Below are positions 17,012 to 32,911 of a stretch of DNA of 33,497 nucleotides, one piece after another. This DNA is from Steroidobacteraceae bacterium (GTDB taxonomy: Bacteria; Pseudomonadota; Gammaproteobacteria; Steroidobacterales; Steroidobacteraceae). How positions within the stretch are numbered: position 1 is the first letter of the stretch; each line of letters begins with the position of its first letter. The stretch is from the NCBI GenBank assembly GCA_027456085.1, contig DAIDVO010000068.1:1-33497 (forward strand), read 5' to 3'. Below the pieces are notes generated by a model. The model was given only the letters and a program-made list of their open reading frames with translations, did not search any database and had not been told where the DNA came from. Made by a program: the position numbers and the translations under genes.

Positions 17012-17021
17012 CGTGCGAAGT

Positions 17022-17390
17022 GAGAGTCGGCCGATAAGCCGGGTTCTGTCTTGGACAGTCATTCCTCTGGGATGCGCGTCGCCGCGCACCTCGAGCGACC
17101 TACCCGGAAGCCTATGTGGGCCACATATCGCGGCCGTGGGCACCGCTCGCTTCCCTATTTGGCCTTGCTCCAGGTGGGGTTTGCCGTGCCGCCGATGTTG
17201 CCACCGTCGCGGTGCGCTCTTACCGCACCATTTCACCCTTACCGGCGCCGCTCGCGCGGCGCTTAGGCGGTATCTTTCTGTTGCACTTGCCGTGGGCTCG
17301 CGCCCCCCAGGCGTTACCTGGCACCTCGCCCGATGGAGCCCGGACTTTCCTCCATGCGGTTAACCCACAGCGACTGTCTGGCCGACTCTC
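17022..17390 (-). ncRNA. rnpB: RNase P RNA (type A)
   Basis: The catalytic RNA of RNase P, which cuts the 5' leader from pre-tRNAs. On the minus strand the 5' end GAGAGTCGGCC (17390-17380) pairs with the 3' end GGCCGACTCTC (17032-17022) to form helix P1. The universally conserved 5' block GGAGGAAAGTCCGGGCTC and the 3' block ACAGAACCCGGCTTATCGG are both present, as is the central GGTAAGGGTGAAATGGTGCG region with AAGAGCGCACCG. Length is about 369 nt, typical for proteobacterial type A. Ends are set by the P1 pairing; true processed ends may differ by a few bases. The gene begins 27 bp after the rsmI stop on the same strand. Confidence 0.97.
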
Positions 17391-28834: not shown

Positions 28835-29462
28835 CGCATTCGTCATTTTCGCGGCTGCCGCGCTGATGGCGCCGTTCGGCCGGCCGTCGGCCGCCGCGCA
28901 GCCGCGCTCGCGCGCGCGATCGGCGAAGGTCTCGCCGTCGCAGCCTCCGATATCGCTGGACGCGCAGTCCTCGGAAATCGACTACCGCAACAACGATTTG
29001 ATTTTCCGCAAAGTCAAAATTTCTCAGGGTACGATGTCGGTCGAGGCTGATCTTGCGCACGCGACCGGACTGGATTTCGAGAACAGCCACTGGATTTTTC
29101 GAGGCCACGTAAAAATCATCGTGAATCAGGGTGAACTGCACTCCGACGACGCGGACATCATGTTTGCGAACAAGCTCCTCGCGAAAGCGAGCGTTACCGG
29201 CAAGCCGGCTGATTTTCAACAGCGCGACGACAAGTCGGGGCGCGTGGTCCGAGGCCACGCCGAACGGATCGACTATGACGTGCGCCAAGGGATCGTCGAA
29301 CTGTCCAAGAACGCATCGCTTTCCGACGGGAAGAACGAAATTCGCGGTGAATCCTTGAAGTACAACATCGCCGCGCGCAGCGTCCTCGCCGCAGCGGCGG
29401 ATCAAAGCTCGCAGCGAGTGCACATCACGATCACGCCGCCGCGCTCCAACCAAAAACCATGA
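28815..29462 (+). CDS. lptA: LPS transport periplasmic protein LptA
   Basis: The periplasmic bridge protein that carries LPS to LptD/E. The 215-residue precursor has a signal peptide (about 1-28, ending PSAAAQP) and the OstA-like beta-jellyroll, with [19 protein letters not shown] near the start of the mature part. [40 protein letters not shown] and [11 protein letters not shown] follow. It is a little longer than E. coli LptA (185), mainly in the N-terminal linker and the tail. The ATG is inside the end of lptC and the TGA overlaps the lptB ATG. Confidence 0.93.
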
Positions 29463-30184
29463 GCGTGCTGCAAGCGACCAACCTCGCGAAGAGCTACAAG
29501 GCGCGCGCAGTGCTGCGCGATTTGTCGCTGACGGTCGCAAGCGGCGAAGTCGTCGGCCTGTTGGGCCCGAACGGCGCGGGCAAGACCACGGCTTTCTACA
29601 TGATCGTCGGATTGTCCAAGTGCGCACACGGCGAAATCTTGCTGGACGGCCGCGACATCAGCCGGCTGCCGATGCACAAGCGCGCGCAAATGGGCTTGGG
29701 CTACTTACCGCAGGAGCCGTCGGTATTTCGCAAATTGTCGGTCGCGGACAACATCATGGCGATCCTGGAAACGCGGCCCGGCCTCGATCGCGAGGCGCGC
29801 GAATCGAGGCTCGAGGAGTTGCTCGGCGAACTGCACATCGACCACGTGCACGACAGCTTGGGGTTGAGCTTGTCGGGCGGCGAGCGGCGCCGCGTCGAAA
29901 TCGCCCGTGCATTGGCGGCGGACCCCAGGTTCATGCTTCTGGATGAGCCGTTCGCCGGGGTCGACCCCCTGTCGGTCGCCGACATCCAGCGAATAATCAA
30001 GCACTTGTCGGATAAGGGAATTGGCGTGCTGATTACGGATCATAATGTACGCGAGACACTCGGCATTTGTACGCGGGCGTACATCGTGAACCAGGGTGTC
30101 GTGATCGCTGCGGGATCTGCGGAGCAGATTCTTGCAAATTCGCAGGTGCGTGAGGTGTACTTGGGACAGGATTTCAAACTGTAG
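29459..30184 (+). CDS. lptB: LPS export ABC transporter ATPase LptB
   Basis: The cytoplasmic ATPase that powers LPS extraction by LptFG. The 241 residues equal the E. coli length. The Walker A motif GPNGAGKTT lies at about 36-44, the Q-loop in [14 protein letters not shown], the ABC signature [17 protein letters not shown], Walker [14 protein letters not shown] and the H-loop ITDHNV. The tail [10 protein letters not shown] is the usual LptB ending. ATG overlaps the lptA TGA; the stop is TAG, 22 bp before rpoN. LptF and LptG are not in the window. Confidence 0.97.
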
Positions 30185-30206: not shown

Positions 30207-31442
30207 ATGTTGAAGCCTAGTCTGCAGCTCCGGATTGGCCAGCAGTTGACGATGACGCCGCAACTGCAACAGGCGATCCGCTTGCTCCAACTGCCGGCCT
30301 TGGATCTTCAGGCGCACGTTCGCGAGGCGCTCGAAACCAATGTCATGTTGGAGGCCGACGATGATTCCGGCGCAGATGTCGTCGCCGAGGCGCCGCCGGA
30401 TCCCGAAGATCGGCCGCTACGCGAGCCTTACGCCGAGCTCGACGGCAAATCGGGCGGCGACGACGAGCGCGAACAGCCGGAAGTCGAGGTCGCCGACGAG
30501 GCCTGGGGTGAGCAGGTGGTCGGGCCCTCGGACTCGCCCTGGTCCGGCGGCGACGACCGCGGCGGCGATTTCAGCGACCAGCGCGCGCCCACGCTGCAGG
30601 ATCAGCTGATCGAACAACTGGATCTCGCGAAGCTGTCGCCGACGGATCTTGCGATCGCGCGCGTGATCGCCGATTCGATATCCGACGACGGCTATCTGCT
30701 GGATGACCTGGAAACGATCCGCGCGAGCCTCCTGCCGGAGATGACGGCGACGATTGCGGACATGGAGCGCATGCTCACGGCCGTCCAGGCCCTGGAGCCG
30801 GCGGGCATCGGCGCGCGCAATCTCGGCGAATGCATCGCGCTGCAGCTTGGCCAGCTGGATGCGGCAACGCCGGGGCGCGATATCGCGATGCGGATTGCGC
30901 TCGAACACTTGGATCTTGTTGCTGCGCAACAATTCGTCGTACTGCGGCGCCAATTGCGCTGCAGCGAAAGCGATCTGGAACTCGCCATCGCCTTGGTGCG
31001 CTCCTGCCATCCGCGGCCCGGGGCCGCGCTGGGTGCCGGCCAGGCCGAATACGTGATTCCGGACGTGTTCGTGCGGCGCACCGATCAAGGCTGGATCGTT
31101 GAGGTCAACCCGGTGACCGTTCCGCGCGTGCGCGTCAACCAAAGCTACGCGAACTTGATCTCGCGCGCTCCCGACCACGCGATGCTGCGCACCCAACTGC
31201 AGGAAGCGCGCTGGCTCATGCGCAGCCTCGAGATTCGCAGCGAAACCCTGATCAAGGTCGCGCGCTGCATCGTAGAGCGCCAGGCGAGCTTCTTCGAGCG
31301 CGGCGAAGAGGCGATGGAGCCCTTGATTCTCAAGGACGTCGCCGAGGCGGTAGAAATGCACGAATCGACGATTTCGCGCGTGACCACCGCGAAATACATG
31401 CATACGCCGCGCGGCGTGTTCGAATTCCGCTATTTCTTCTAG
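30207..31442 (+). CDS. rpoN: RNA polymerase sigma-54 factor RpoN, N-terminal 411 residues (stops at in-frame TAG)
   Basis: Sigma-54 directs RNA polymerase to -24/-12 promoters. This frame encodes region I (PSLQLRIGQQLTMTPQLQQAIRLLQL, the activator-interacting part), an acidic region II (about 48-115), the core-binding domain and the helix-turn-helix (VAEAVEMHESTISRVTTAKY at about 377-396). It ends MHTPRGVFEFRYFF, and then TAG. In homologues the next residues are SSHV...; the same frame continues here as SHVAAADG after the TAG. The truncated product lacks the RpoN box needed to bind the -24 element, so it could bind core polymerase but should not recognise promoters normally. The rest looks intact, not decayed. 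Start ATG 22 bp after lptB. Read through, the protein would be 493 residues (E. coli 477). Confidence 0.93.
   Translation: MLKPSLQLRIGQQLTMTPQLQQAIRLLQLPALDLQAHVREALETNVMLEADDDSGADVVAEAPPDPEDRPLREPYAELDGKSGGDDEREQPEVEVADEAWGEQVVGPSDSPWSGGDDRGGDFSDQRAPTLQDQLIEQLDLAKLSPTDLAIARVIADSISDDGYLLDDLETIRASLLPEMTATIADMERMLTAVQALEPAGIGARNLGECIALQLGQLDAATPGRDIAMRIALEHLDLVAAQQFVVLRRQLRCSESDLELAIALVRSCHPRPGAALGAGQAEYVIPDVFVRRTDQGWIVEVNPVTVPRVRVNQSYANLISRAPDHAMLRTQLQEARWLMRSLEIRSETLIKVARCIVERQASFFERGEEAMEPLILKDVAEAVEMHESTISRVTTAKYMHTPRGVFEFRYFF
31440..31442 (+). other. In-frame TAG interrupting rpoN
   Basis: The codon after FRYFF is TAG, followed by AGC CAC GTC. The homologous position is Ser in E. coli RpoN (YFF then SSHV); TCG to TAG needs only one C-to-A change at 31441. 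The frame is the same before and after. It could be a real nonsense mutation, a base-call error, or a suppressed codon. TAG is the ordinary terminal stop of mraZ, murA, lptC and lptB in this window, so general reassignment is unlikely. Confidence 0.9.
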
Positions 31443-31472
31443 AGCCACGTCGCCGCGGCCGACGGTACGGAA

Positions 31473-31688
31473 ATGTCGTCGACCGCGATCCGCGCGAAGC
31501 TCAAGAAGCTGATCGCGCAGGAAAGCCCGGACAATCCGTTGAGCGACGCCAAGCTCGCGGAGATTCTTTCCGGAGAAGGCATACCGGTGGCTCGGCGCAC
31601 CGTCGCGAAATACCGCGAAGGAATGCAAATCGCTCCGTCCAGCGAACGGAAGCGGGCTGCGGCGCGCGCGCGCCAACACGAATTTTGA
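31473..31688 (+). pseudogene. rpoN: RpoN C-terminal part with the RpoN box (downstream of the TAG)
   Basis: Continuing in the rpoN frame after the TAG, this stretch encodes the DNA-binding C-terminus. From the first available Met (31473) it is 71 residues, with [27 protein letters not shown] and the RpoN box [10 protein letters not shown] (about residues 40-49), followed by a basic tail. The box is perfect, so selection has not yet relaxed or the sequence is read through. Internal start at ATG 31473 is unlikely to work well; only CGGAA lies just upstream. It ends in TGA 16 bp before hpf. Without the upstream part it has no core-binding domain. Confidence 0.85.
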
Positions 31689-31704: not shown

Positions 31705-32025
31705 ATGCAGCTCGATCTCAGCGGTCATCACCTGGAAATCACCCCCGCGCTCCGCAGCTATGTATCGAAGAAATTCGAAAAGATTGCGCGCCACTTCGAA
31801 CAACTGATCGACGTGCATTGCGTCCTCACGATCGAGAAGCTGCGGCACAAGGCCGAGGCGACGCTGATGCTGCGCGGAAACAAGATCTACGCGGAGGCGA
31901 CCGAAGGCGACATGTACGCCGCGATCGACGCGCTGACGGACAAGCTGGACCGCAGCGTCAAAAAGCACAAGGAAAAATCCTCGGATCATCACGCCGAAGA
32001 CGTGATCAAGGCGCGCATTTCTTGA
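31705..32025 (+). CDS. hpf: Ribosome hibernation promoting factor HPF (short form)
   Basis: Binds the decoding centre of the 30S subunit and helps form inactive 100S ribosomes in stationary phase. The 106 residues match the short HPF/YfiA family: MQLDLSGHHLEITPALRSYV at the start, KFEKIARHFEQ, CVLTIEKLRHKAEATLMLRG and EGDMYAAIDALTDKLDRSVKKHKEK with the conserved basic helix. It has a strong GGAGGA site seven bases before the ATG. In E. coli hpf follows rpoN and precedes ptsN; here rapZ follows directly. Confidence 0.94.
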   Translation: MQLDLSGHHLEITPALRSYVSKKFEKIARHFEQLIDVHCVLTIEKLRHKAEATLMLRGNKIYAEATEGDMYAAIDALTDKLDRSVKKHKEKSSDHHAEDVIKARIS

Positions 32026-32044
32026 GGCATCGGGGCCGTTGCCG

Positions 32045-32911
32045 ATGCGCCTGATCATCGTCAGCGGGCTGTCGGGCTCCGGCAAGAGCGTGGCGTTGCA
32101 CATGCTGGAGGACAGCGACTACTACTGTGTCGACAACATTCCCGCGGCGCTGCTCAAGCCCCTGGTCTCGCACATCATCCGCGGCGGCTCCGAGGACGTC
32201 TATCCTCGGACCGCGGTCGGGCTCGACGCACGCAACCGCGCGAAGGAAATCGCGATGGTTCCGACGCTCGTCGACGAACTGCGCCGCAGCGGCATCGACT
32301 GCGACATTCTGTACCTGCATGCCGGCGACGAGGTCCTGCTGAAGCGCTATGCGGAGACCCGCCGCAAGCATCCCTTGAGCACCGAAGGCGTCAGTCTGCG
32401 CGAGGCGATCGCTTCGGAGCGCGCTCTGCTCGAGCCGATCACCGCCGCCGCGGACCTCATCATCGACACCTCGAACATGGGGGTTCACGCGCTGCGCAAG
32501 CTCATCCGCGAGCGCATCGACACGCGGCGCCCGCATCACGTGTCCTTGATGTTCGAGTCGTTCGGCTACAAACACGGGATTCCCGGCGATGCGGATTTCG
32601 TCTTCGACGTGCGCAGCCTCCCGAACCCGTTTTGGGAACAGACCTTGCGCGACCTGACCGGGCGCGACGCCGCGGTCGTGGAATTCCTCGGCGGCCATGC
32701 GAGCGTGCGCGAAATGATCGCCGACTTGGCCGCCTTCCTGTCGAAGCGCCTCAAGGAATCCGCGGATGCGAACCGCGGATACCTCACTATCGCGATCGGC
32801 TGCACCGGTGGCCGGCATCGCTCGGTGTACGTCGCCGAGCGCCTCGCCGAACATTTCAGGCTCACGTGCCCGCAGGTGCTTACGCGTCACGATTCGCTGC
32901 CGCAGGCGTGA
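32045..32911 (+). CDS. rapZ: RNase adapter protein RapZ (YvcJ family P-loop protein)
   Basis: In E. coli RapZ guides RNase E to the sRNA GlmZ and so tunes GlmS, the amino-sugar enzyme that feeds cell-wall and LPS synthesis. The 288 residues begin MRLIIVSGLSGSGKS with a Walker A (about 8-15) and contain YYCVDNIPAALL. VSLMFESFGYKHGIPGDADFVFDVRSLPNP is split across the middle, and the C-terminal basic motif IAIGCTGGRHRSVYVAE matches the E. coli RNA-binding region. I chose ATG 32045, in line with homologues; a TTG two codons earlier is the alternative. ptsN and npr, its usual neighbours, are missing. Confidence 0.94.
   Translation: MRLIIVSGLSGSGKSVALHMLEDSDYYCVDNIPAALLKPLVSHIIRGGSEDVYPRTAVGLDARNRAKEIAMVPTLVDELRRSGIDCDILYLHAGDEVLLKRYAETRRKHPLSTEGVSLREAIASERALLEPITAAADLIIDTSNMGVHALRKLIRERIDTRRPHHVSLMFESFGYKHGIPGDADFVFDVRSLPNPFWEQTLRDLTGRDAAVVEFLGGHASVREMIADLAAFLSKRLKESADANRGYLTIAIGCTGGRHRSVYVAERLAEHFRLTCPQVLTRHDSLPQA

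Follow-up and report, generated by a model that had tools for sequence, protein, structure and literature searches.

As assembled, the rpoN gene of genome G000 is interrupted by an in-frame TAG codon. We think it highly probable that this codon comes from one wrong base, or from a minority base that entered the consensus, in a metagenome-type assembly of low quality. A dozen stop codons interrupt conserved genes within 492 kb of this assembly, their mix of stop codons looks like chance, and the stretches of related assemblies that we scanned contain none. The initial annotation had offered three explanations for the TAG: a recent loss of sigma-54 function, a base error, or tolerated suppression. 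Because comparable stops of all three kinds lie in indispensable genes and are absent from the related stretches, the base error is the best supported of these; suppression lacks support, for several reasons given below, and no finding of ours supports a loss of sigma-54. Most likely, the organism encodes Ser at this site, so that its rpoN is complete and ordinary and its sigma-54 normal. We observed the pattern of stops over a fifth of the assembly and infer the cause behind it, which would be a sequencing or consensus error, probably by way of low coverage.

The window, by which we mean the whole stretch of 33,497 nucleotides that was analyzed, is contig C68 of G000, a draft genome of 2.46 Mb in 204 contigs that is 81% complete. 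The features around the stop, by position in the window, are:

29459..30184, + strand: lptB, directly upstream of rpoN (TIGR04406, 380 bits)
30207-31688, + strand: rpoN, sigma-54, 493 positions apart from an in-frame TAG at 31440-31442
30207..31439, + strand: front part of rpoN, 411 codons (Pfam PF00309, PF04963, and PF04552 positions 3-88)
31440..31442, + strand: the in-frame TAG, at residue 412, which is Ser in every one of the 22 other genomes in the genus
31443..31688, + strand: rear frame of rpoN, 81 codons plus TGA (PF04552 positions 91-160; conservation kept)
31590..31619, + strand: RpoN box, from the translation ([10 protein letters not shown])
31705..32025, + strand: small ORF in the place of hpf (ORF prediction)
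32039..32911, + strand: rapZ, downstream of rpoN (PRK05416, 334.5 bits)

The reading frame opens with the ATG at 30207, runs for 411 codons to the TAG, and then meets no stop until the TGA at 31686-31688. According to Pfam, the 411-residue front part contains Sigma54_AID, Sigma54_CBD, and positions 3-88 (of 160) of Sigma54_DBD, and the 81-residue rear part contains positions 91-160 of Sigma54_DBD, including the RpoN box. All of the domains are present and above the Pfam cut-offs, with one TAG within the DNA-binding domain as assembled. A profile search of the whole genome gave one PF04552 match in G000, in a frame of 494 codons with one TAG inside, and identified no second rpoN in this 81%-complete genome. 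Sequence, Pfam, and the whole-genome search thus bear out the initial annotation's description of a near-complete sigma-54 frame of 493 positions with a TAG at 31440-31442. It was also correct that the ten residues at 31590-31619, which we take to be the RpoN box with its role in recognizing the -24 element, are intact beyond the stop, and its 411-residue product, with the activator-interacting and core-binding parts and without the RpoN box, matches the Pfam layout. The surroundings are in the usual order, with lptC and lptB upstream and with the small ORF (presumably hpf, from its position) and rapZ downstream. So the gene resembles other gammaproteobacterial sigma-54 genes in its three Pfam parts, in the order lptB-rpoN-(hpf)-rapZ, and in its RpoN box, but differs from them in being broken by a TAG at residue 412. 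Among the aligned genes of the window, this TAG was the only stop that stood out. A tblastn search with all stop-to-stop ORFs and its follow-up were swamped by antisense frames; in the follow-up, only the stop at 31440 had near-complete identity on both sides together with a gene-like base pattern.

The initial annotation stated that homologs have Ser at this position, and this holds for all 22 of the other genomes of the genus (10 TCC, 11 TCG, and 1 TCT). For 21 of these, we found the codon by a motif search (10 TCC, 10 TCG, 1 TCT); for G011 (TCG), whose contig starts just ahead of the site, we found it by reading. A serine codon in close relatives had been put forward as the sign of a sequencing or assembly error. 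For the genus, this sign is there, but the nearest genome is just ~81% identical to G000 over rpoN, which is too distant to decide the matter alone. The named relatives (74-79% protein identity) were assembled from metagenomes; most are labelled as Gammaproteobacteria and one as Steroidobacteraceae, and words like bog and palsa in the isolate names are suggestive of peat. Across 148 relatives, including G000, the domain is present in 134, and G000 alone has a stop inside it. In a sample of the class, 306 of 369 genomes had a match, and among the 150 matches listed, one contained a stop (a TAA in G268). A search of plasmids at 60% identity or above found nothing that matched the front part of rpoN. 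A stop in rpoN is unusual for rpoN, yet such stops are not unusual for this assembly.

The part of rpoN beyond the stop is free of decay. Among the rpoN columns that do not vary across 15 or more relatives, G000 has a different residue at 3 of the 175 that precede the stop and at 0 of the 39 that follow it. Therefore, the stop either arose recently or is not a true one.

To see how common such stops are, we scanned 492,095 bases of G000, or about 20% of it, in 20 + 20 stretches plus the window. A candidate was an in-frame stop flanked on either side by 30 codons of coding-like sequence. There were 40 candidates, most of which were junctions between neighboring genes. All 40 were compared to profile libraries (Pfam and/or NCBIfam), with the stop read as X, and a stop was considered to be internal if a match ran well across it within one gene. 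By this definition, 12 of the 40 candidates were internal:

TAG (7): rpoN, sucD, nadE, ileS, dksA, an MsbA-like ABC protein, and pyruvate dehydrogenase E1 alpha
TAA (4): trmL, pth, putA, and a GAF/PAS/GGDEF protein (crossed by the GAF domain)
TGA (1): an esterase, from a PDB alignment alone (3h2g)

Alignments to proteins in PDB, which were run for just eight of these cases and the esterase, span the stop in sucD, nadE, trmL, ileS, pth, dksA, and E1 alpha, and cross it by 10 residues in putA. According to these alignments, the stop stands in place of Glu in three genes (nadE, trmL, and dksA), of Ala in two (putA and E1 alpha), and of Ser in sucD, Phe in pth, Asp in ileS, and Gly in the esterase. 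Readable copies from the same genus have Ser at the site in sucD (11 of 11) and Glu in nadE (19 of 19). The stop in ileS is at a variable position (of 19 copies from the genus, 13 have Gln, 3 have Asp, and Glu, Asn, and Gly occur once each), and it is crossed only by a partial match to a long NCBIfam model and by the PDB alignments. The MsbA-like protein has NCBIfam matches that stay under the cut-off, and there is no Pfam domain that extends across its stop. The esterase has no match in Pfam or NCBIfam, and given where the PDB alignments were run, its evidence has no counterpart in the controls.

Of the remaining candidates, the seven with no family at the E-value used were counted as not internal (L371, L235:10631, L235:10484, L240:7874, L379, L248:1411, and L373, the last of which was searched at 1e-30 only). 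At the nuoF-nuoG junction (L233), a weak match extends 4 residues across the stop, and we counted this as a junction. A TonB-dependent receptor on the minus strand has two TAG codons that are 357 bases apart (L237:9624 and 9981); it was left out of the 12, as the first stop is crossed by 7 residues only and the second is not among the 40.

A cell that lacks NAD synthase (nadE), isoleucyl-tRNA synthetase (ileS), or peptidyl-tRNA hydrolase (pth) is not expected to be viable. As these presumably indispensable genes contain stops, alongside dispensable genes that do, the internal stops cannot all be real and effective.

As a control, we ran the identical scan, with the same scoring table, on 750,011 bases from 11 genomes of the same genus. 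(We excluded G007 from the controls because its per-genome model was badly trained, on 915 codons.) This gave 22 candidates, all of which were compared to Pfam and/or NCBIfam, and none was judged to be internal. They had separate genes on either side of the stop or a one-sided match, except for four that had no family at the E-value used (L286, L189, L283, and L289) and were counted as not internal. For two of the 22, weak secondary matches extend across the stop, and both were counted as junctions. At L278, a prfB model crosses the stop with 46.9 bits, as compared to a cut-off of 370, and ArfB proper starts past the stop; at L181, long ABC models cross an lptB-rpoN junction, where lptB ends before the stop and rpoN starts past it. 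Comparing 12:28 in G000 to 0:22 in the controls gives p = 0.005 (Fisher's exact test), and the result does not hinge on the doubtful cases: p is 0.005 without the esterase, 0.01 with 10 internal stops, and 0.02 with 9. A plain test of rates gives 1.5e-5. We prefer the test on proportions because the control genomes, whose G+C content is 0.60-0.71, yield fewer junction candidates per base than G000 does. Internal stops are commoner in the G000 assembly than in the scanned stretches of related assemblies.

The three stop codons occur in proportions that fit random base changes. Given the codon usage of G000, random single-base changes would give 59% TAG, 26% TAA, and 15% TGA, and the observed 7, 4, and 1 do not depart from this (chi-square p = 0.74, from small numbers; p = 0.34 for 7, 4, and 0 if the esterase is removed). 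An error rate of ~1e-3 per base is implied (0.5-1.7e-3, with 88% of the sequence taken as coding). At that rate, the chance of a false stop in rpoN is ~0.04, or some ten times the frequency of stops in other rpoN domains (1 in 281, where the part from the class sample is among the matches listed).

The substitutions in the window add little to the case. We counted 41 private amino-acid changes in 2440 columns, or 16.8 per 1000, and the other genomes with at least 1000 columns have 3.7-42.3 per 1000. The private changes of G000 are not clearly raised, and the ~5 expected errors would hardly show. The private changes are rich in transversions (28 of 33 in G000 versus 213 of 358 in the others, p = 0.004). 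We also considered that all of the changes might be C>A or G>T, as from oxidized guanine. We dropped this idea because most of the relatives of ileS have CAG at the site and the share of such changes is 10 of 33 in G000 versus 63 of 358 in the others (p = 0.10). Finally, we looked for frameshifts by comparing genes from the relatives to the first 328 kb of G000 with tblastn, with small coverage outside of the window. Hits that covered over 40% of the gene were obtained for 174 gene-sequence pairs, and these gave three reports, all at ~25.2-27.8 kb. We consider all three to be artefacts, as the predicted ORFs of the relatives seem to cross murA in antisense into kdsD.

Could the TAG be translated instead? 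If TAG, or stops more generally, were read through, whether by a suppressor tRNA or by weakened release (perhaps from loss of RF1), the cell would make full-length sigma-54. It is true that 7 of the 12 internal stops are TAG and that several are in indispensable genes. It is also true that RF1 (prfA) is not over the cut-off in the G000 assembly, while it is over the cut-off in 19 of the 22 other members of the genus. But a second, prfB-like match to the RF1 profile, with 258-286 bits in 18 of the 22 relatives, is missing from G000 as well. And when we searched with the DNA of the prfA region of G015, the sole match in G000 was to the start of the gene ahead of prfA (presumably hemA, from its position), at L249:7035-7257, and this gene reaches the end of its contig (C182, 7273 bases). 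Because the preceding gene hits the end of the contig and the prfB-like match is missing too, prfA is most likely missing through an assembly gap, and we set aside the loss of RF1 as grounds for read-through. As for a suppressor, none of the 32 tRNAs that we found in G000 has the anticodon CUA (although such a tRNA could be absent from this incomplete assembly), and of the 272 genes predicted in the first 328 kb, 71 end in TAG, as does lptB. Furthermore, the stops in sense positions include TAG, TAA, and TGA (5 of the 12 are TAA or TGA), and they replace Ser, Glu, Gln, Gly, and other residues, so no single suppressor tRNA accounts for them. Taken together, we consider read-through of TAG to be very improbable, and the suppression that the initial annotation proposed is not supported. 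A broader version, in which the stops are real and all three kinds are tolerated in sucD, nadE, ileS, pth, and rpoN through leaky termination, would draw on the absence of both release factors from the assembly; we give such general read-through even less credence. The pattern of stops argues against amber suppression and recoding, and also against a specific loss of sigma-54.

A real and recent nonsense mutation in the sampled population is the alternative that we take most seriously, although we consider it unlikely. The product would then have 411 residues and no RpoN box, it would not recognize -24/-12 promoters, and the function of sigma-54 would be lost. rpoN is dispensable in many bacteria, so the stop in rpoN could be real even if the others are errors; in that case, a regulator that the cell can do without would have been lost recently, which is nothing out of the ordinary. 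The TAG is in the only rpoN that we found, and since all 22 of the relatives in the genus have Ser, the change would be private. Inactivating lesions in rpoN do occur, for example in a Vibrio anguillarum mutant (PMC6596326). Against this, the same assembly has similar stops in the indispensable nadE, ileS, and pth, and the lack of any change at the 39 invariant columns past the stop gives no sign of decay. Also, G000 has eight matches to the sigma-54 activator-type family PF00158, of which six are strong (204-245 bits) and two are weak (26-30 bits; these are probably other AAA proteins), and no stop was reported inside any of the eight. The six strong matches without stops are in keeping with an intact sigma-54. 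The promoter pattern TGGCAC-N5-TTGCW had 3 matches versus 1 for the reversed pattern, which is too few to say anything. A still stranger idea is that sigma-54 is split, with translation stopping at 31440 and restarting at the in-frame ATG at 31473, which is 30 bases past the TAG, and with the two pieces cooperating. The rear piece does keep the RpoN box. But no other of the 148 relatives compared has a stop in the domain, and the known sigma-54 is a single chain; of the explanations considered here, we find this one the hardest to believe.

If the TAG is a base error, as we expect, then it has a close parallel. Cooley and Wright 2024 (PMC11017572) describe pseudogenes with internal stops that often arise from errors in low-coverage assemblies and whose numbers track base accuracy. 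The stops in G000 resemble those spurious pseudogenes in that there are more of them than in related genomes, the changes look random, and both flanks are conserved. The difference is that near-identical genomes and reassembly of reads were used there, while we had the sequence alone, and our nearest genome is that ~81% identical relative. In the phage-resistant V. anguillarum mutant PF4-R8 (PMC6596326), the reading frame of sigma-54 is also broken, but by a 67-bp deletion with a frameshift and with a matching phenotype, rather than at one codon of a draft assembly. More broadly, even without the reads, three comparisons can test a seemingly convincing finding about a single gene of a draft genome: whether indispensable genes are broken as well, whether related genomes that are scanned in the same way show such breaks, and whether the mix of stop codons differs from chance.

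Several minor observations came out of these searches. G268, from the class sample, is a genome in one contig with a single TAA inside the DNA-binding domain of sigma-54 (G268:C1:2199223-2199699), and it may be a better example of a true interruption of rpoN. In two families of the same order, f12 and f13, none of the sampled genomes (five of each) has the DNA-binding domain of sigma-54, which suggests that these are whole families without sigma-54; their genomes are 2.5-3.1 Mb (f12) and 1.3-1.4 Mb (f13). In G000 itself, a DksA-like protein (L385, contig C20, 4270-5130) lacks most of the zinc-finger cysteines of E. coli DksA in an alignment. The high end of L235 (contig C98) and positions 1-140 of contig C85 have exactly 140 bases in common at the contig ends, and ileS spans this break; such an overlap would be expected from a de Bruijn assembler run at k = 141. 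Finally, the window encodes a bacterial class A RNase P RNA at 17019-17389 on the minus strand (311.9 bits), near rsmH.
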